A stretch of 64,000 bases of DNA from Candidatus Methanoplasma sp. (lineage in GTDB: Archaea > Thermoplasmatota > Thermoplasmata > Methanomassiliicoccales > Methanomethylophilaceae): NCBI GenBank assembly GCA_031256955.1, contig JAIRPP010000013.1, positions 124,001-188,000 on the forward strand. The letters run 5' to 3'. Below the pieces are notes generated by a model. It made no database searches. It saw only the letters and a list, made by a program, of their open reading frames with translations, and was not told the origin of the DNA. Below are positions 4,488 through 17,867 of the stretch, one piece after another. A program made the translations under genes and the position numbers. The stretch's first letter is position 1. Every line of letters starts with the position of its first letter.

Positions 4488-7223
4488 TCACGGGGACTGC
4501 TGGCCCCAGAGGACCGTGCGCTGCCCGTTCATGTACTGCTTCGTGTCTATCCAGTCCTGATGCCATCCGGAAGGCTGTCTGGCCGCCTGCGCCTTGACGA
4601 CCGCGTAGGCGCCTATCGGATCGAACGCCCCATCCCCCATAGCGGTGACGCTGATGGGGATGAAGACGCTGGCCAGATTGATGTTGTGGGAGAACGCCCC
4701 CGCGCCTATGTCGGTCACGCCCGAAGGAATCACCAGGCTCTTGAGCGAGTTTCTGAAGAACGCATCGTTCCCTATGGTCTTCAGGGTCGAAGGCAGGGTC
4801 AGGGAGGATATGGAGTGCGCCTGGAACGACGCAAGCCCTATGGATTCCACCCCGTCGCCCAGCACGACGGTCGTCATCTTGCCGTTGAGGCCGCCCAGGG
4901 CGTCCGCCGTGAATGCGTAGTCCCCTATGGCCTTGACGCTCCCGGGTATGGTCACGCCGGGGAGGTTGTTGCATTTGTAGAACATCATTCTGCTGATGTA
5001 CGGTATCCCGTCCTCCAGCGTCAGGCTGGTCATCCTCTCGCATCCCCAGAATATCTTTTCATCCAGATTCCTGACGCTCCCGGGTATGATCGCGCTGGTG
5101 ACGCCGGATTCCTGGAACGCCCCGTTCTCGATGGTCTCCAGGCCGTTTTTGAGGACCAGGGGGCCGAGGCTCGAGGTCTTGTAGAACGACGCGATCTTTA
5201 TGGTCTTGACGCTCCCGGGTATGGTCACGCTGGCCAGGCCGGCGCATTCGTAGAACATCCCCTCGCTGACGATGGGGACCCCGTCCTCGATGACGACGGT
5301 GGCCAGTTTGTCGCATTGGTAGAACATCCATGTCCCCACGCTCCTGACGCCCCCGCCGATGGTGACGGCGGTGATGCCGGATCCCTGGAACGCAGAGTTG
5401 CCTATGGCCTTGACGCTCCCTGGGATGATCGTGCTGAACGTCCCAGTGTTTTTGAACGCCCCCTCCCCTATCGATTCTATCCCGTTCCCGAGGGCTAGGG
5501 TCGCCAGCTTGGCGTCTCCGTAGAACGCATAGTCTCCTATGGCCTTGACGCTCCCGGGGATGGAGACTCCCGACAGGGAGGTGCAGTTCCTGAACGCGCT
5601 CTTCCCGATCTCCCCTACCCCGTTCCCGAGGGCCAGGGTGGCGAGGCTGCTATCGCCGTCGAACGCCCACCCGCCTATGGCCTTGACGCTCCCGGGTATG
5701 GAGACTCCAGTGAGGGCGGTGCAGCCGGCGAAGGCGCTATCGCCTATCGACTCTATCCCGTTCCCGAGGGTCAGGGTGGCGAGGCTGGCATCTTTTTGGA
5801 ACGCGTTGTTGCCTATGGCCTTGACGCTCCCCGGGATCGATACCCCCGTGAGGGCGGTGCAGTTGGCGAAGGCGTAGCTCACGATCTCCTCTATCCCGTT
5901 CCCGAGGGCCAGGGTGGCGAGGCTGCTGTCGCTGTCGAACGCCCACTTCCCTATGGTCTTGACGCTCCCGGGGATGGATACCCCCGTCAAAGATTTGCAG
6001 TCGTCGAAAGACTGGGCGCCCAGCGACTCTATGCCGCTCCCCAGAGTCAGGGTCTTCATGCTCAAACAGTTGTGAAACGCGAGGTTCTCTACCGTCTTGA
6101 CACTCCCGGGTATGCTCACCTCGAGGATGCCCTTGCACCCGCTGAACGCCCCTTTCTTTATGATCTCGACGGTGTCTGGTATGTAGACCCCAGTGATGTT
6201 AACATAGCCCTTGAACGCCTCGGTGGTTATCGACGTGACCATCTTCCCGCGGTACCACTCCTGTATCGCCATGAGCCCGGTCGCGATCGCGGTACCCCTG
6301 TTCACTCCGCACTCTGTCGTGCTCGTGCCGGGGTAGTTCAGGTTGTCGGTCCCTAGCCAATACGCGTGCAGAGTGATGTCGCCTGCGTACGGCCACACGG
6401 GCTCGCCGTCCCACGGGGAATCCCATGCGGGCCCGCCCGCCACTGCGTTTATCCCGCCGATCTGGTCGTACCACCCGCCGAAGTCGTAGGGCCACCTTTC
6501 AGGGAACGGGAGGGTGAACGGGTCGCCCAGAGTCACGGTCAGCGTGTCTCCCCCTTTCTTGTCGTCCGCCCTCTGGTAGTCGAAGGTGACCGTGAACGTG
6601 GTGGTCCACTCGGCGTAGAGGGTCGTGTTCGTGTACACGCGGTCCCTCGAGAAGTTCCATTCGTTGCTGCACCCGGGCTCCTTGTACCACCCGCCGAAGC
6701 TGAAGCCGGGCCTGGTCGGAGGCGCGGGCGCGGAGATCTTGGTCCCCTCCCGCGCGGTCACGCTGGCCACGGGGGAGCCCCCCTGGCTGTCGAAGTCGAC
6801 CGTGTACGTCTCGTACGGGTTCCCCCCGATGACGTTCCCGCTGTCGTCGACGGCGCACCACTTGGCGTACAGGGTCATGTCGCCATCGACGGCGTCCCTG
6901 ACGAAGTTCCACTCGTTGACGCAAAGCTCGGTCCTGAACCACCCGTCGAACGCGTAGCCCTCCTTGGTGGGAGGATCGGGCGCGGAGATCTTGGATCCCG
7001 CCTCTGCGTGTATAGACCACATGTGAGGATACCCTCCCTGGCTGTCGAAAACGACCGTGTAGGTCTCCACCTTGTCGCCTATCTCGCCCGGCGGACCGTC
7101 CCCGCACGCGCATTCCTCGATCGAAAACACCGCATACGCGCTCATCGCCATCGCGAGCAGCGCGAGCAACAGCAGCGGCGCTGCCATGTACTTCCTGTCT
7201 CTCCTGTCTTTTTCGTCCCCCAT
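4488..7223 (-). CDS. BspA-type leucine-rich-repeat / InlB-repeat surface protein
   Basis: 911 aa. A charged N-terminus and one hydrophobic helix (AAPLLLLALLAMAMSAYAVF, residues 14-33) act as signal or anchor. Then come two clear InlB/Listeria-Bacteroides type repeats with the GW.....C..EW..........TLYAKW pattern (about 55-125 and 140-210) and a third, weaker one. From about residue 330 to 890 there are about 24 BspA-type leucine-rich repeats of about 23 residues (SIPGSVKTIG..AF). The tail is Trp-rich. No C-terminal membrane segment is seen, so the ectodomain is probably held by the N-terminal helix. Such proteins mediate adhesion in gut microbes. It is a close paralogue of the next gene upstream and shares its leader. 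Confidence 0.9.
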   Translation of the reverse strand: MGDEKDRRDRKYMAAPLLLLALLAMAMSAYAVFSIEECACGDGPPGEIGDKVETYTVVFDSQGGYPHMWSIHAEAGSKISAPDPPTKEGYAFDGWFRTELCVNEWNFVRDAVDGDMTLYAKWCAVDDSGNVIGGNPYETYTVDFDSQGGSPVASVTAREGTKISAPAPPTRPGFSFGGWYKEPGCSNEWNFSRDRVYTNTTLYAEWTTTFTVTFDYQRADDKKGGDTLTVTLGDPFTLPFPERWPYDFGGWYDQIGGINAVAGGPAWDSPWDGEPVWPYAGDITLHAYWLGTDNLNYPGTSTTECGVNRGTAIATGLMAIQEWYRGKMVTSITTEAFKGYVNITGVYIPDTVEIIKKGAFSGCKGILEVSIPGSVKTVENLAFHNCLSMKTLTLGSGIESLGAQSFDDCKSLTGVSIPGSVKTIGKWAFDSDSSLATLALGNGIEEIVSYAFANCTALTGVSIPGSVKAIGNNAFQKDASLATLTLGNGIESIGDSAFAGCTALTGVSIPGSVKAIGGWAFDGDSSLATLALGNGVGEIGKSAFRNCTSLSGVSIPGSVKAIGDYAFYGDAKLATLALGNGIESIGEGAFKNTGTFSTIIPGSVKAIGNSAFQGSGITAVTIGGGVRSVGTWMFYQCDKLATVVIEDGVPIVSEGMFYECAGLASVTIPGSVKTIKIASFYKTSSLGPLVLKNGLETIENGAFQESGVTSAIIPGSVRNLDEKIFWGCERMTSLTLEDGIPYISRMMFYKCNNLPGVTIPGSVKAIGDYAFTADALGGLNGKMTTVVLGDGVESIGLASFQAHSISSLTLPSTLKTIGNDAFFRNSLKSLVIPSGVTDIGAGAFSHNINLASVFIPISVTAMGDGAFDPIGAYAVVKAQAARQPSGWHQDWIDTKQYMNGQRTVLWGQQSP

Positions 7224-7374: not shown

Positions 7375-10300
7375 TCAGGGCGACCTGTTCCACTCCACCG
7401 GGTATCCCCCGCTGTTCCAGCTCGGGTCCCACCCGGGCTGCGGGCCGGAGGCCTGCGCCCTGATGACCATTCCTGCAGAGCATCCCTCGAACGCCCCCGC
7501 GCCTATCTTCGCCACGGTCCCGGGGATGAACGCCGACGAGAGGTTGATGCATCCGCCGAACGCGCGCGCCCCTATGCTCTCGAGGCCGCCCTTCATGGCG
7601 ACCGATGATATCCTGAGGCATTCGCTGAACGCCCCGTCGCCGATGGACTTCAGGCTCGCCGGGAGCCTCAGCGTCGCCAGCGAGGCGCAGCCGCGGAACG
7701 CGTCCTTCCCGACCGTTTCGACTCCTTCCGCGAGGGTTATCTCCGATGCGAGCCCGCAATCCCGGAACGCCCCCTCCCCTATGGCCTTCACGCTCCCGGG
7801 CACGACCAGCCTGGAGAAGGAGCAGCCTTTGAACGCCTCCTTCCCGATGGACGAGACCCCGTTGCCGATGGTTATCACCCCGACGCTCGTACATCCGTCG
7901 AACGCGTGGTCGGCTATTTGTTTCACGCTCCCGGGTATGTTCAGCGACCTCAGCGACTCGCACCTGACGAACGCGTATTCCCCGATGAAGTCCAGGCTCG
8001 CCGGGAGCGATACCGTCGCGAGGCTCTTGCACTCGTAGAACATCTGTCTGCTGATATAGGGCACCCCGTCCGCTATGGCCGCGCTCTTGAGGCTCGTGCA
8101 TTTCTGGAAGGCGAAGTTCCCCACGGCCTTCACGCTGGCCGGGATGGACACCGACTCCAGCGACGAGCATTCGATGAACATGCTCACGCTGATCTCGGGC
8201 ACCCCGTCGGCTATGGCCGCGCTCTTGAGGCTCGTGCACTCCTGGAAGACGTGCGTCCCCACGGCCTTCACGCTGGCGGGGATGGACGCCGACTCCAGCG
8301 ACGAGCATCTGAGGAACATGCCCTGGCTGAGCATGGGCACCCCGTCCGCTATGGATACGCTCCTGAGCTTGGAGCAGTCCTGGAAGACGTGCGTCCCCAG
8401 GGTCTTCACGCTGGCCGGGATGGACGCCGACTCCAGCGACGAGCATCCCATGAACATGGCCTCGCTGAGCATGGGCACCCCGTCCGCTATGGATACGCTC
8501 CTGAGCTTGGCGCAGTCCTGGAAGGCGTACTTCCCGATCGAGGACGCGCTGGCCGGTATCGACGCCGATGTTATGGACGATCTGTAGAACGCGCCCTCGC
8601 CTATGGCCCTGACCCCGTCGGCCATGTCCGCGCTCGCCATGGAGTAGCTCCTGGCGAACGCGTACTTCCCTATGGAGTCCACGCTGCCCGGGATGGACGC
8701 GGATCCGAGGGCGACGCACAGCCTGAAAGAGTACTCGCCTATGGACTTCACGCCGTCCTCGATGTCCAGGGTCGCCAGCGCGGAGCACCCGTCGAAGGCG
8801 TAGTCCCCTATGGACCTCACGCTCCCCGGTATGGAGACCGCGGCGAGCGCGACGCAGTTGTAGAACGCGTACTTGCCTATGCTCCCCGCGCCGTCCTCCA
8901 GGGCCAGCGCGGACAGCGAACCGCATTCGCTGAACGCGTAGTTCCCGATGGAATCCACGCTGCCAGGTATCGAGATCCCGGTCAGATCCTTGCAGTATTG
9001 GAACGCGCTCTGCGCGATCTCCTTCACGCCGTACCCCAGGGACGCGCTGGTCAGGCCGCTGCTCTGGAACGCCCATTTGCCTATGGTCTTGACGCTCCCG
9101 GGTATGGAGACGCTGTCCAGCTTGTCGCATCCGAAGAACGCGCTGCTGTCTATCTTTTCCACGCCGTCCTCCAGATCCGCCCAGGTCAGGCCGGATTCGC
9201 AGAACGCGGAGTCCCCTATGACCTTCACGCTCCCCGGTATGGTCACGCCGTCCAGGCTCTTGCACTTGTTGAACGCGCCCTTCGAGATGTCCCCGACCCC
9301 GCTCTCCAGCGCGACGGTGACGAGGCCGGAGTTGTAGAACGCCCATTCCCCTATGGACTTCACGCTTCCCGGCACGGCTATCCCCGCCAGGCTCGAGCAT
9401 CCGTAGAAGGACGCCTTCCCTATCTCGCCCAGGTTCTTGGACAAAACCGCGCTCCTCAGGCCCGTGCATCCGTAGAACGCGTACTCGCCCATCTCCGTCA
9501 CGCTGTCCGGAACGGACACGCCCTGGAGGCTGTCGCAGTACGAGAACGCCTGCGCGCCTATCGCCTTCACGGTGCCCGGGATGTGGACGCTGGCGACCCA
9601 GCTCTTCCTCATGAACGCGTTCTGCGCTATCGATGTCACGAGGTCCCCCTCGAAGTACTCCTGTATCGCTATCGCGGGCTCGCTCGCGCTCCCGACGGAG
9701 GCCTCGCGCTCGCCGGATGCGCTGACCTTATAGTCGAGGCCCGGGGTCCCGAGCCAGTACGCGTGCAGCGTGATGTCGCCCGCGTGCGCCCAGTCCGCCT
9801 CGTGGTCCCACGGGGTGGGCTTGCCGAGGACGGGGTTGACCCCCCCTATCCCGTCGTACCACCCGCCGAACCTGTACGGCGCCCTGTCGGGCGCCGGGAG
9901 CGTGAACGGGTCCCCGAAGACGACGGTCATGGAATCCGCCCCGTTCTTGGCATCGGCCCCCTGGTAGTCGAACGTCACCGTGAACCTCTCTATCCAGCCG
10001 GCGTAGAGCGTGGCGTCGCTGTAGACCAGCTCCTTGTCGAACTCCCATTCGAACCTGCAGCCCGGGTCCTTGTACCATCCCGCGAACGCGCTCCCCTGCT
10101 TCGTCGGCGGGGCGGGCTCGACCGCCCTGGAGCCCTCCGCGACCGCCTGGCTGGGCACGGGCGTGCCCCCCCGGCTGTCGAACGAGACCGTGTACGTCTC
10201 GTACGGGTCCCCTCCGACGATCTCGCCGCCGTCGCTGACGTACGCCCACCCGGCGTACAGAGTCATGTCGCTCACCACCGGGTAGGCGTCGAAGTCCCAC

Positions 10301-10632
10301 TCGTTGGCGCAGTCGACCTCCATGTACCACTCGTCGAACAGGTAGCCGTCCCTCGACGGCGCGGGGTCCGGCGGGCTGATCATCCCGCCGTACTCGACGG
10401 TCTGGCTGGGCACGTCGCCCCCGCCCCGGCTGTCGAACGAGACCGTGACGGGGTCGTGGCGGTCCGCTATGGACCCTCCGCCGCCCCCGTCCCCTCCGGA
10501 TCCCCCTCCGCCGCCCCCGCGGCCGTCTGCGCTCGAAAACAACGCGTATGCGCCGGCGGCCGCCCCCAGCAGGAGCAGCAGCAACAGCGCGGCTATGAGC
10601 CTCTTGTCTCTATCCCCCTCTTCCCTCTCCAT
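7375..10632 (-). CDS. Large BspA-type leucine-rich-repeat / InlB-repeat surface protein
   Basis: 1085 aa. N-terminal MEREEGDRDKR, hydrophobic helix LIAALLLLLLLGAAAGAYAL, a Gly/Asp-rich linker, then InlB-type repeats ending in TLYAGW (three, about residues 70-270). About 30 BspA leucine-rich repeats (SIPGSVKSIGDYAF type) follow to about residue 1050, with a Trp-containing tail. The start at 10632 is chosen over ATG 10698 because it follows GGGGGG at a normal ribosome-binding distance, and because the TATA box lies at 10683-10692, inside the longer version. Same layout as the 4488-7223 protein, probably a tandem duplicate. Likely an adhesin facing the gut environment. Confidence 0.9.
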   Translation of the reverse strand: MEREEGDRDKRLIAALLLLLLLGAAAGAYALFSSADGRGGGGGGSGGDGGGGGSIADRHDPVTVSFDSRGGGDVPSQTVEYGGMISPPDPAPSRDGYLFDEWYMEVDCANEWDFDAYPVVSDMTLYAGWAYVSDGGEIVGGDPYETYTVSFDSRGGTPVPSQAVAEGSRAVEPAPPTKQGSAFAGWYKDPGCRFEWEFDKELVYSDATLYAGWIERFTVTFDYQGADAKNGADSMTVVFGDPFTLPAPDRAPYRFGGWYDGIGGVNPVLGKPTPWDHEADWAHAGDITLHAYWLGTPGLDYKVSASGEREASVGSASEPAIAIQEYFEGDLVTSIAQNAFMRKSWVASVHIPGTVKAIGAQAFSYCDSLQGVSVPDSVTEMGEYAFYGCTGLRSAVLSKNLGEIGKASFYGCSSLAGIAVPGSVKSIGEWAFYNSGLVTVALESGVGDISKGAFNKCKSLDGVTIPGSVKVIGDSAFCESGLTWADLEDGVEKIDSSAFFGCDKLDSVSIPGSVKTIGKWAFQSSGLTSASLGYGVKEIAQSAFQYCKDLTGISIPGSVDSIGNYAFSECGSLSALALEDGAGSIGKYAFYNCVALAAVSIPGSVRSIGDYAFDGCSALATLDIEDGVKSIGEYSFRLCVALGSASIPGSVDSIGKYAFARSYSMASADMADGVRAIGEGAFYRSSITSASIPASASSIGKYAFQDCAKLRSVSIADGVPMLSEAMFMGCSSLESASIPASVKTLGTHVFQDCSKLRSVSIADGVPMLSQGMFLRCSSLESASIPASVKAVGTHVFQECTSLKSAAIADGVPEISVSMFIECSSLESVSIPASVKAVGNFAFQKCTSLKSAAIADGVPYISRQMFYECKSLATVSLPASLDFIGEYAFVRCESLRSLNIPGSVKQIADHAFDGCTSVGVITIGNGVSSIGKEAFKGCSFSRLVVPGSVKAIGEGAFRDCGLASEITLAEGVETVGKDAFRGCASLATLRLPASLKSIGDGAFSECLRISSVAMKGGLESIGARAFGGCINLSSAFIPGTVAKIGAGAFEGCSAGMVIRAQASGPQPGWDPSWNSGGYPVEWNRSP

Positions 10633-10773: not shown

Positions 10774-11727
10774 ATGGGCTACAATGTAGAGATAGTCTCT
10801 GCGGAGGAATCCTCTCGCCTCAGATCCGAATGCGCCGGGCGGGCCCTGTTCTCGTCCAAAGTGGACATATCGGGCCTGTGCGTGGAGCTTCTGACGTCCG
10901 ACAGGGACCACGTGTCCATGTGGGAGGACAACTTCTATTCGATGTCGGAGCACACCAGGGCCCACGCCAAGATATACTCGGTGTCGGACCCGGGCAGGGG
11001 CATGGAGGTCTTCTACGACCCGTCCACCAAAGCGGCGTTCCTGTTCAACTTCGACTACTACGGGTGGATCAAGAGCATCGCCCTGGGCGTGTCCGGGGAC
11101 ATATTGGAGGAGGGGCACGGCATACACTCCGTCCACGGGGCCGCCCTGGACATAGACGGCGTGGGGGTGACGCTCATAGCCCCGTCCAAGACGGGCAAGA
11201 CCACGCAGTCGTGGGGGCTGCTCCGCATGGACAACGCCCACCTGATAACGGACGACTGGTATTTCGTCAGGCTCGGGAAGGGCAGGCCGGTGGCGTACGG
11301 GTCTGAGAAGAACTGCTACATCGACGCGGACATAGGGGACGTGTGGGAGGAGTACAAGCCCCTGGTCAAGAGCGTCAGGTTCGACAACAGGGGCCGCGGG
11401 ATCGCGAACGTGAGGTGGGTGGCCGGGGAGTCCTCGGTCATGCCGGCGGCCAGCGTCAGGCACGTGTTCCTCATGAAGCGCGACCCGTCCGACCCGACGG
11501 TGATCCGGCGCATGACCCCCGCGGAGGGGGTGGAGTACATGGCCTCCAACGACATGTGCAACCCGCACCAGATGGTCAGGGGCCCCCGCAAGTCGGAGAT
11601 CCGCCGCAGGTTCGCGTCGGAGTACTTCTCCGCGTGCGACGTCCATCTCGTGAACACGATACTGCCCCCGCGGGAGACGCAGGAGGCCATCCGCGGGGCG
11701 CTTTTCGGAAGGGAGGGGGGAGCGTGA
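10774..11727 (+). CDS. HPr kinase/phosphorylase-like P-loop protein
   Basis: 317 aa. A Walker A loop APSKTGKT at residues 136-143 is followed by the acidic pair TDDWYFV at 159-165. The P-loop is preceded by HSVHGAALDIDGVGVTL. This arrangement (buried strand, P-loop, then DD) is that of HprK-related nucleotide-binding proteins that are not true HPr kinases. No HPr gene is present here. The substrate is unknown. It is translationally coupled to the next gene, a membrane protein, by a GTGA overlap, so the two probably act together, perhaps as a membrane-attached kinase or phosphate sensor. That function is inference. Confidence 0.7.
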   Translation: MGYNVEIVSAEESSRLRSECAGRALFSSKVDISGLCVELLTSDRDHVSMWEDNFYSMSEHTRAHAKIYSVSDPGRGMEVFYDPSTKAAFLFNFDYYGWIKSIALGVSGDILEEGHGIHSVHGAALDIDGVGVTLIAPSKTGKTTQSWGLLRMDNAHLITDDWYFVRLGKGRPVAYGSEKNCYIDADIGDVWEEYKPLVKSVRFDNRGRGIANVRWVAGESSVMPAASVRHVFLMKRDPSDPTVIRRMTPAEGVEYMASNDMCNPHQMVRGPRKSEIRRRFASEYFSACDVHLVNTILPPRETQEAIRGALFGREGGA

Positions 11728-13554: not shown

Positions 13555-13943
13555 GCAGCGCCCCCGCCGCGCCTGCAACAAATGGGGCCCGCGCCCCGGG
13601 CGGCGTCGCGCATGGGTCCCGCATGGGCGCGAGAGATATAAGAAACGGGGCTCCGGGGGAGGGCCGCGGGCCCGCGCGCACGGCTCCCGTGCCCCCGCCG
13701 CCCCGGATCGCCTTTTCCCACATATACGGAAACGGAGGGCGCCGCGCCGCGCCGCGCCCGCCCTCTCCCGCATATCCATCTCAGCCATGCGCCGGGCGCC
13801 CGCCCCGCTCGGATCCCCCTATTTCCGATTTTTCAGAGCGGACATCTTCGAAGTAGGGCGGCCGTTTCTCGAAACAGGGACAATATTATAGGCAAAATTT
13901 ATATCTATCGTTCTGGCTATCCAGAAATGGGGAGGATTCTTCT
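13555..13943. other. Divergent intergenic region between sfsA and the InlB-repeat gene
   Basis: No gene is seen in these 389 bases. On the minus strand a TATA-like TTCTTATATCT near 13628-13638 may serve sfsA. The right end turns AT-rich and carries the promoter of the surface gene. Confidence 0.5.
13896..13904 (+). promoter_or_regulatory. TATA box and ribosome-binding site of the InlB-repeat surface gene
   Basis: AATTTATAT lies about 40 bases before ATG 13944. GGGGAGGA at 13929-13936 is a strong ribosome-binding site at a normal distance. Together they fix ATG 13944 as the true start, even though the main coding frame downstream is different. Confidence 0.7.
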
Positions 13944-16900
13944 ATGAAAGACACCACCGAGACTGCCGCCACTAAAAAGGCAGTCATAATCGCCGCCGCC
14001 CTAGTGTTGCTAGTGGCAGGCGTAGCTGTCGTTCTTTTCTCCATTGGCGGATCGGACAACGATTCGCGGGGGGGGGGAGAAGGAACCGGTCAGGTACACT
14101 GTGACCTATGACTCTCGCGGAGGGTCGTACGTCTTCCCGTCCGTAGCCTTGGACGGGGAGAGGATCGGGGACCCGGGCCCCTCCGAGAGGGAGGGGTATC
14201 AGTTCTCCGGTTGGTTCAAAGACGCGTCCGCCACGTCCCAATGGGACTTCGGCAGGGACGTCGTGACCAAAAACACCACCTTATACGCCAAATGGGGCGT
14301 CTCCGAGGGAGACGTCGGGCCGCCTCCGTACTCCGTGTCCTTCGACACCCACGGCGGATCCTACCTAACCAGCATAACCGACGTCGAATACGATTCGCGC
14401 ATAGTCGCGCCGAAACCCGATCCCGAGAAGCTCGGGTACGTCTTCGGCGGATGGTACAAGGACGCGGCGTGCACAGTCGCATGGAGCTTCGCGTCCGACT
14501 ACGTCGTCGGCGACACGGTCCTCCACGCCAAGTGGTCCGCAATAACCTACACCGTGGCATATCACGGCAACAAGCCCGCCGCCACCGAGGGAACCGTCGG
14601 CGAACCCGACTTCCCGATAACTCACACCTACGACGAGGCCAGGGATCTCGAGCCCTTCGAGGCGTTCACCCTGACCGGGTACAGGCTCACTGGATGGAAC
14701 ACCCAAGCCGACGGGAGGGGAACCGCCTACGCCTTCGGACAGAGCGTGACCAACCTCAGGTCCGAACTGGGCGAAACGTTCGACCTGTACGCCGTATGGG
14801 TCGCGATAACCTACTGGGTGGAATACAACAACGTCGCTCCCGCCTCGACCGAATCGGTCCCGGTCGGTCCGGACGGAAACGTAAAGATAGCGGTGGAGCA
14901 CACCTACGATGCTGGGAAGACGCTCGAATCGCAAACCACGATCGGCTTCGAACTGAAGGGGTACATTATGAACTCGTGGTCGAGGGTCCCGGGCAGCACC
15001 GACGAGATGGACGCGGCCTTCACCCCGGCCCAAGGGAATGTGAAGAACCTCGCGGACACGCAGGACGCTGTCGTGCAACTGTACGCCCTGTGGCTGCCGA
15101 TACAGTACAAGGTGATATACGTGTCCGGCATGGCGGGCGTGGCTAACGTAGAGGACCCGCACACCTACGTCTACGACAAAAGCTGGAATCTGATGGCTAA
15201 CCCGCTCGCCAAGACGGGTTACGACCTGACCGGATTCACGGCGACCCGGGAGGGCGGGTCCGCGGCGGAGGCGTTCGCCCCGGGCCAGCTCGTGAAGAAC
15301 CTCGCGTACACGCACCTCGCGAAGGTGGAAATGAACCCCGTGTGGACGCCGATAACCTACGACGTGGTGTACAAAGCCAACGGGGGAACCCCGACGGAAG
15401 ACATCGTCATAGAGCACGTCTACGACCAGGCGAAGAGCCTGGAGTCCGGCGGGTTCGCCAAGACGGGATACAACCTGACTGGATGGAACACCAACTCCGC
15501 CGGGACGGGGACCGCCTACGCCCTCGGCGAGTCCAAGACCAACCTCAGGAGCACCGCGGGCGACTACGACCTGTACGCCGTGTGGACGCCGATAACCTAC
15601 ACCGTGGTATATCACGGCGACGCTCCCACGACGGCCTCGACGACCACGACAGGGAGCATAGCGAACCTGCCGTGCACATACGACGCGCTTCCGACGCTCG
15701 CGAGCGCCGGCTTCACCCTGACGGGATACACGCTCAAGGGCTGGACCCACACCTCCGGCGAGACAGTGAAGAACTACCCCCTCGGCCCGGCCCCGGCCAA
15801 CCTGAGCTCCACGGACAACGATACCGTGGACCTGTACGCCAAGTGGGAGGCTAACACCTACCGCGTGACCTTCAACAGCAACGGTGGCTCCGGATTCGCC
15901 GCCCCGATCGAGCACACCTTCGACGTCTATTACACGCTCCCGGGAGCCGCCGGGTTCTCCAAGACCGGGTACACCATGGGCGGATGGAACACCAACTCCG
16001 CCGGGACGGGGACCAACTACGACGCGGGCAGCAGCCAGCGGAACCTGTCCACGGGCGCTAACATAGATCTGTGCGTCAAATGGATCCCGGACACCTACAT
16101 CGTCTCGTTCGACGCGAACGGGGGGACGTGGGCCTCGGGATACCCCGGGGACATGACGTTCACCTACGGCGTCACTCAGAGACTGCCGCCCGCGAGCTCG
16201 GTCACCAGGACCGGGTACACCATGGGCGGATGGAACATAACCCCCGAGGGGGACGGAACCAACTACACGGTCGGTGTGGAAACCAGCAACATGCCGTATG
16301 TTGATGGCAGACTGACCCTGTACGCCAAGTGGGACCCGATAACGTACTCCCTGGAGTATCACGACGACAAGCCGGCAACCGATTCGGTCTTATACGGAAG
16401 CGTGCCGAGCGTGCCTTCGTGCACATACGGCGCGTCGATGACGCTCGCGTCCTCCGGCGGCTTCACCCTGACGGGGTACACCCAGACGGGATGGGCGAGG
16501 ACCTCGGGCGCGCTCACGGCGGATTTCGCCTGCGGCGCGACGATCACGTCGGACCTCAAGTCCGGACAGGGCGAGACCGCGAACCTGTACGCCGTGTGGG
16601 CTCCGATAACGTACTCCGTCACCTACAACGGCAACGGAGGATCGGGATCCGTGACGGGCCACACCGGGTGCAAATACGACGAGAACGTGACGTCCGCGTC
16701 TAGCGGGTTCACCAAGACGGGGTACATCTTAGAGGGATGGGCCAAGGACCCGACGCACGCGAAGGAGATCGGCCTCGGCGAACCCTTTAAGAACCTGACT
16801 TCGACCAATGGCGGCTCTGTGCCCCTGTACGCCGTGTGGAAGCCGATAGAGTACACCGTGACGTATTTCGTCCCCGTCGACGCCACCGGATCCGTCGGCG

Positions 16901-17826
16901 ACGATGATTTCATCTACGACATCGACAAGAATCTCTCGGACGGCGTGGGCATGGACAAGGGCGGGCACACCCTGACGGGATGGTCGAATTCCCTGAACGG
17001 GGCGAAGGCGTACGACCTCGGCCAGTCCGTGAGGAACCTGACCGCCGTAAATAACGACGTCAAGACCCTGTACCCTGTATGGACGCCGAAAACCTACATC
17101 GTGACGTTCTATAAGAACGACGGGACCACCGACGTCCATGCCACAGCTACCGTCTCCTATGGCTCTCCGGTGACGACGGCGCCAGCGAACCCGACCAGGA
17201 TGGGGTACGTCTTCGCCGGATGGTATCAGGAGGCCGGATGCGTAAGCGGGCATAACATCGGAAGCACCCAAGTTTACGCAGACACGCCCCTCTTCGCCAA
17301 ATGGGACCCGATAACGTACTCCCTGGAGTATCACGGAGACGCTCCCTCGGGGGCATCGACGACCACGGCCGGGAGCGTGCCGAGCGTGCCTTCGTGCACA
17401 TACGGCGCGTCGATGACGCTCGCGGGCGCCGGCGGCTTCACCCTGACGGGGTACACCCAGACGGGATGGGCGAAGACCCCGGGCGCGCTCGCGGCGGATT
17501 TCGCCTGCGGCGCGACGATCACGTCGGACCTCAAGTCCGGACAGGGCGAGACCGCGAACCTGTACGCCGTGTGGGCTCCGATAACCTATAAGGTGATCTA
17601 CAAAGCCAACTGGGGAATCCAGGAGGACGTTGTGGACTGGGTCGCCTTCGACCAGGACTATGACCTGAGGCCAGGCGCATTCACTGCACCTGAAGGAATG
17701 AGCTTTGTCGGATGGAACACCGAATCCGATCTGAGTGGTACTGACCTCAATCCACTCGCGACCGTTAAGAACCTCAAGGATGAACAGGACGAAGAGTACA
17801 CCCTCTACGCCGTGTGGGGACCATAA
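13944..17826 (+). CDS. InlB-repeat surface protein with a frame break at a G10 tract
   Basis: The start ATG 13944 opens a frame with a typical anchor: MKDTTETAATKKAVI, then the hydrophobic helix IAAALVLLVAGVAVVLFSI. As written, this frame stops at TGA 14109-14111 after 55 residues. The ectodomain lies one base out of frame from about 14062 to 17826 and holds 15 InlB/Listeria-Bacteroides repeats of about 70-90 residues, each ending in LYAVW or LYAKW, with the last one ending the protein. Removing one G from the run of ten at 14068-14077 joins the two parts into a 1293-residue protein. So the gene is phase-variable, recently broken, or misassembled. A hairpin terminator follows directly. Confidence 0.85.
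14068..14077 (+). repeat. Homopolymer of ten G between anchor and ectodomain
   Basis: Ten consecutive G follow GATTCGC. The run encodes the start of a Gly linker between the membrane helix and the first repeat. With nine G (or six, or twelve) the full protein is made; with ten it ends early. Confidence 0.9.
16328..16611 (+). repeat. Near-identical internal repeat, copy 1 (partner at 17303-17585)
   Basis: This stretch encodes repeat 10 of the surface protein (SLEYH ... LYAVWAP). Apart from a short variable stretch early in each copy, it reads almost base for base like the stretch at 17303-17585, which encodes repeat 14. The other repeats of the protein are far more diverged, so the pair must be recent or kept alike by gene conversion. 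Confidence 0.85.
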
Positions 17827-17832
17827 ACCAAC

Positions 17833-17867
17833 GAGCCCGCCCTTCGGGGCGGGCTCATCTTTTTTTT
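17833..17867 (+). terminator. Hairpin plus T-run terminator after the InlB-repeat gene
   Basis: A perfect 10-bp stem GAGCCCGCCC / GGGCGGGCTC (17833-17842 and 17847-17856) with a TTCG loop, followed by ATC and nine T. It starts 6 bases after the stop codon. Confidence 0.85.

Follow-up and report, generated by a model that had tools for sequence, protein, structure and literature searches.

A poly-G tract in an archaeal surface-protein gene: a very likely contingency locus in a genus with a probable phasome

Results

The window, by which we mean the whole 64-kb stretch of DNA analysed, carries on its forward strand a large surface-protein gene which is recorded in two reading frames. The gene is preceded by a putative TATA box, TTTATATC (13898..13905), and by a ribosome-binding-site-like GGGGAGG (13929..13935), located 8 nt 5' of the ATG at 13944. 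Both elements were recognised by their sequence, and they agree with the promoter and ribosome-binding site proposed in an earlier note on this DNA. The ORF starting at this ATG (13944..14111) encodes 55 residues, MKDTTETAATKKAVIIAAALVLLVAGVAVVLFSIGGSDNDSRGGGEGTGQVHCDL, comprising a short charged N-terminus and a hydrophobic signal anchor. Towards its end lies an uninterrupted run of G (14068..14077), the proposed hypermutable switch. A second frame, offset by one base from that of the anchor, is open from 14080 to 17826 on the same strand and was matched by PF09479 (List_Bact_rpt) with an E-value of 1.7e-96 and 316.8 bits, against a curated cut-off of 27; fifteen repeat ends were counted in it. 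This ectodomain exceeds 1240 codons, has a strong coding signal and contains no additional defects. Downstream of the stop there is a terminator-like hairpin followed by a T run (17833..17867, hairpin 17833-17856). The gene product thus has the composition of a List_Bact_rpt surface protein, with its anchor in the other frame as recorded. The count of ten bases in the G run, the 55-residue product and the one-base offset of the 15-repeat ectodomain, all claimed in the earlier note, were reproduced exactly. The anchor and ectodomain frames part precisely at G10, so that a change by one unit shifts the reading frame, and the length of the tract is of the hypermutable kind that defines simple-repeat contingency loci. 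No orthologue of the gene was found at the DNA level among 17 genomes of the genus, only distant repeat proteins and no close orthologue were matched in GTDB contigs, and a pattern search of viral contigs returned nothing. The window also encodes a thermosome and the large subunit of replication factor C, which marks the DNA as archaeal.

Two tract-less genes on the reverse strand of the window served as internal controls. The first encodes an anchored surface-repeat protein of 911 aa (4488..7223), and its linker between anchor and repeats is free of G runs; the second encodes an anchored protein of 1085 aa (7375..10632), and its Gly-rich linker is written in mixed codons. In the same genome, the linker DAGRGGGEDLSAVTYS recurs in three clustered paralogues: the copy in an intact, in-frame gene has G7, and the other two, both in out-of-frame genes, have G9 and G11.

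Runs of G or C in the window were distributed unevenly: there were 18 runs of length 7, none of length 8 or 9, and a single run of 10. A first-order Markov model for 64 kb at 64% GC predicts about 0.95 G or C runs of at least 10, and the length of G10 alone is therefore not the evidence. Each of the 16 length-7 runs located inside a called gene of the window left that gene open (16/16), and hence homopolymer errors are not widespread in the assembly. In 449 kb of DNA from the same genome, sampled as stretches around tracts, we counted 1548 runs of 5, 417 of 6, 133 of 7 and 3 of 8. Genome-wide (G000), there were 17 runs of exactly 8, 5 of 9 and 37 of 10-16, i.e., 42 runs of at least 9, with the tract of the window gene among them. 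Consequently, 37 of the 59 runs of at least 8 reached 10, versus about 9% expected under a geometric tail (P about 1e-24). Runs of 8 and 9 are purged, and runs of at least 10 form a separate class. The numbers of runs of exactly 8 versus those of at least 10 were 17/37 in this genome, 2/94 in the sister species G002 and 6/63 in genome G003. The repeats are retained beyond chance, as follows from the length gap in the window, the bimodality across the genome and the fact that tracts recur behind the anchors of surface proteins.

The G10 locus is one among dozens, which the earlier note had missed. Eighteen of the 42 tracts of at least 9 are situated within a recognised gene or break one. Eleven are found no more than about 70 codons from the start of genes for anchored surface proteins, at or beside the anchor (the window gene, L040, L045, L047, L048, L055, L060, L062, L063, L068, and L072), while the density at which anchored genes occur in the window predicts about 1.4 (P 3e-7 for eleven). 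The domains of these surface proteins include PF09479 and PF13306. Loci L040 and L045, at the ends of contigs C2 and C3, have near-identical surface-gene 5' ends with G9 in each; both contigs end 28 nt past the tract, indicating that the assembly breaks at these repeats. The state of a gene was scored from the frame of its anchor or of a paralogue. Taking the longest open frame through the tract as the gene was rejected, since in L048 that frame has no anchor; the anchor frame of L048, confirmed by tract-less siblings, places this gene out of frame. Among the scorable tract genes, six were in frame (L047, L055, L062, L072, L061, and L042) and nine were out of frame (the window gene, L048, L060, L063, L068, L057, L071, L050, and L066).

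The scored genes are not limited to surface proteins. A Type ISP restriction-modification (R-M) gene of 1611 aa (L061:4864-9699) carries G11 in its helicase region and is in frame. A GT87 glycosyltransferase gene (L057:5118-6459) is out of frame at G12; its frame reading is confirmed by L235, an intact GT87 paralogue without a tract. A second copy of the GT87 5' end, with G10 and apparently decayed, lies 1.46 kb 3' of it. Locus L071 harbours a two-TM gene, out of frame at G11 (around 5143-5153), with a match to PycTM of Pycsar effectors, and judging from this match it is possibly a phase-variable phage-defence effector. Three further in-gene tracts (L042, L050, and L066) were located in genes for membrane or regulatory proteins without a Pfam name.

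Across the 17 genomes of the genus, the number of runs of at least 10 ranged from 0 to 94 per genome, and in the remainder of the family from 0 to 25. McrA was found in 10 of the 17 genomes, identifying the genus as methanogenic; it had no match in G000, which is 88% complete, and incompleteness is probably the reason. The genus probably belongs to the Methanomethylophilaceae. None of the 17 genomes yielded MutS, which is compatible with tolerance of slippage and is no proof of it. The highest number of runs of at least 10, 94, together with two runs of exactly 8, was recorded in G002, at 49% GC in the stretches taken. This genome encodes about 50 anchored surface-protein paralogues (L204, L207, L210, L213, and L215-L233 among the loci analysed), nearly all of which have G11-G13 at one site, between a short leader (MN.KS.K...) and the anchor NYNFPSRLNITVLFAAALFLAAAFFVTYSEPNESDA. 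Out of 23 members scored, two were in frame and 21 out of frame, a pattern that fits a mostly-off family and also allows for another route of expression. Among the 11 pairs whose flanks shared at least 90% identity, 8 had tracts of unequal length; the length thus evolves more rapidly than the neighbouring sequence, and a tract is still kept at flank identities as low as about 70%. A D12 DNA methyltransferase gene of G002 (L157) is out of frame with a G11 tract, so that R-M or methyltransferase genes with in-gene tracts occur in both genomes. In G003, a repeated and mostly intergenic element was noticed (L178, L184, L187, L191, and L192), several copies of which apparently have G12-G17 at one position.

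Discussion

We consider it very likely that the window gene is a poly-G contingency locus and belongs to a genome-wide phasome in an archaeal genus. Replication slippage on G10 would add or remove single Gs at high frequency. One of the three length classes would join the anchor with the 15-repeat ectodomain into a membrane-anchored surface protein, and in the other two translation would end after some 50 residues, leaving no anchored ectodomain; the sequenced population would have been recorded in an off class. We infer reversible changes of tract length in a single strain, with expression changing accordingly. The idea of an on/off switch, put forward for this gene in the earlier note, which named a sequencing error and a fresh null mutation as the other options, gained support from the many tracts, their bimodal lengths and recurrent site, the mixed frames, the length differences between paralogues and the classes of genes concerned. 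On a wider scale, the genus probably has a full poly-G phasome: several of its species would each carry 20 to 90 hypermutable tracts per genome, and the surface family of roughly 50 mostly-off members would be part of it. Besides surface proteins, the phasome would take in a restriction-modification enzyme, a GT87 glycosyltransferase and a protein that is a candidate for phage defence, and the switching of R-M and phage-defence genes would accompany what would be the first slippage-driven system of phase and antigenic variation described in archaea.

The rival which best keeps to the facts acts at the level of RNA: transcriptional slippage or ribosomal frameshifting would yield a fixed full-length minority, and the tract would set dosage and not an on/off state. 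RNA polymerase slippage is possible on long homopolymers, and 21 of the 23 G002 members scored are out of frame with their ORFs intact, as if out-of-frame copies were still in use. However, near-identical paralogues differ in tract length, so the DNA does change, six tract genes of the window's own genome are in frame, and many tracts are intergenic, where frameshifting is meaningless. The DNA differences and the intergenic tracts speak against RNA-level slippage as the sole role, and we regard it as unlikely. A sequencing or assembly error, by which the tract would have been miscounted by one base in a gene that is in fact intact, seems quite unlikely as the explanation, even if homopolymers of 10 bases are error-prone, the genome is a draft of 17 contigs and several tracts are close to contig ends. 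A one-base miscall can produce neither tracts of 10-16 bases nor a gap at 8-9, it cannot explain why about 50 paralogues in another species have their tract at the same position, and the genes of the window stayed open through their runs of 7. The recorded state of the window gene could be a one-base miscall; the tract class cannot. Even with a wrong count of G, the gene stays a candidate for poly-G contingency.

A recent null mutation, or decay into a pseudogene, with the break at a homopolymer by coincidence, would agree with a window gene that is recorded broken and has no intact orthologue among the genomes of the genus. Either is very unlikely, given the long ectodomain frame, which is open and strongly coding without a second defect, and a break at the structural position where ten further anchored surface genes have their tracts. 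We give hardly any credence to the tracts being a neutral by-product of coding Gly-rich linkers in a GC-rich genome. The linkers of the family are indeed Gly-rich, and 45% of all Gly codons are GGG, but the tract-less siblings use mixed codons in their linkers, and all-GGG Gly triplets (GGG-GGG-GGG) are otherwise avoided, with 6 seen versus 18.6 expected. The effect is stronger in G002 in spite of its lower GC content, tracts are present in intergenic DNA too, and the observed distribution, with its gap at 8-9 and a hump at 10-12, is contrary to what a neutral by-product would give.

Among the systems known, the poly-G contingency reading brings the genus closest to the phasome of Campylobacter, where poly-G tracts peak at 9-10 with few at 7-8, and where tracts of C. 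jejuni were seen to vary from a limit of 8 G, a limit that G10 exceeds (PMC6321876). Alike are the tracts of at least 8 with a peak (at 9-10 there, at 10-12 here) and their tens per genome, the many tracts within ORFs with G on the coding strand, the mixture of on and off states, and the genes concerned, i.e., those for surface structures, glycosyltransferases and R-M systems (PMC6321876). Unlike Campylobacter, the host here is archaeal, with a GC-rich genome in the species of the window, and more tracts are intergenic. The dominant site is directly behind the signal anchor in large paralogous families of repeat proteins, and the differences in tract length are known from paralogues, not from isolates. 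The gene classes are in common with bacterial phase variation more generally: surface structures, glycosyltransferases, R-M and phage defence. The Type ISP R-M gene and the D12 methyltransferase gene, each with G11, may be regarded as candidates for phasevarions, which elsewhere involve Type I/III systems, in contrast to the Type ISP gene here. A survey of archaeal R-M systems mentions phase-variable ones only when citing largely bacterial studies (PMC10609329). Part of the text of Orsi et al. (2010; PMC2831843), whose data included 18 archaea, describes homopolymers near gene starts as allowing reversible inactivation, with poly-A/T of 5-8 bases enriched and with poly-G/C and tracts over 8 lacking a 5' preference; unlike the present case, archaeal contingency genes are not described in that part. 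The proteins themselves resemble the adhesin-like proteins of gut methanogens (List_Bact_rpt / BspA-type LRR) in sharing PF09479, PF13306 and an N-terminal anchor, and expression switching of those by tract length was not found reported in the literature searched.

The mechanism is known from bacteria, and slippage-driven phase variation has been treated as a bacterial trait. We found no report of it in archaea in the open-access full-text literature; subscription papers were mostly outside this search and priority is not certain. A 2025 review leaves the distribution of slippage-driven phase variation in archaea to future work (PMC11868660). If our reading is true, archaea too create surface diversity via local hypermutation. 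Since surface repeats and a glycosyltransferase would be switched along with R-M and a Pycsar-type effector, the selective pressure could come from archaeal viruses, in addition to hosts or neighbours. Caution is also advisable in annotating these genomes, as a frameshift in an adhesin gene may in many cases not indicate a pseudogene.

About half of the tracts in the window's own genome are intergenic, some of them with no obvious surface gene nearby, which means that tracts also occur outside switch positions. A G13 tract (L067:10732-10744) is placed within the loop of an intergenic hairpin, with G16 close by (10856-10871), both upstream of a tRNA gene; an Rfam search of this region returned the tRNA only, and the hairpin had no match. 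A surface gene of 1071 aa is flanked by two tracts, G10 located 63 nt 5' of its start (L059:5467-5476) and C10 located 24 nt 3' of its stop (L059:8780-8789). In another locus (L064:4374-4387), C14 separates a TATA-like sequence from the start codon (ATG) of a gene for a small zinc-ribbon membrane protein, and this tract is a candidate for a promoter-spacing switch.
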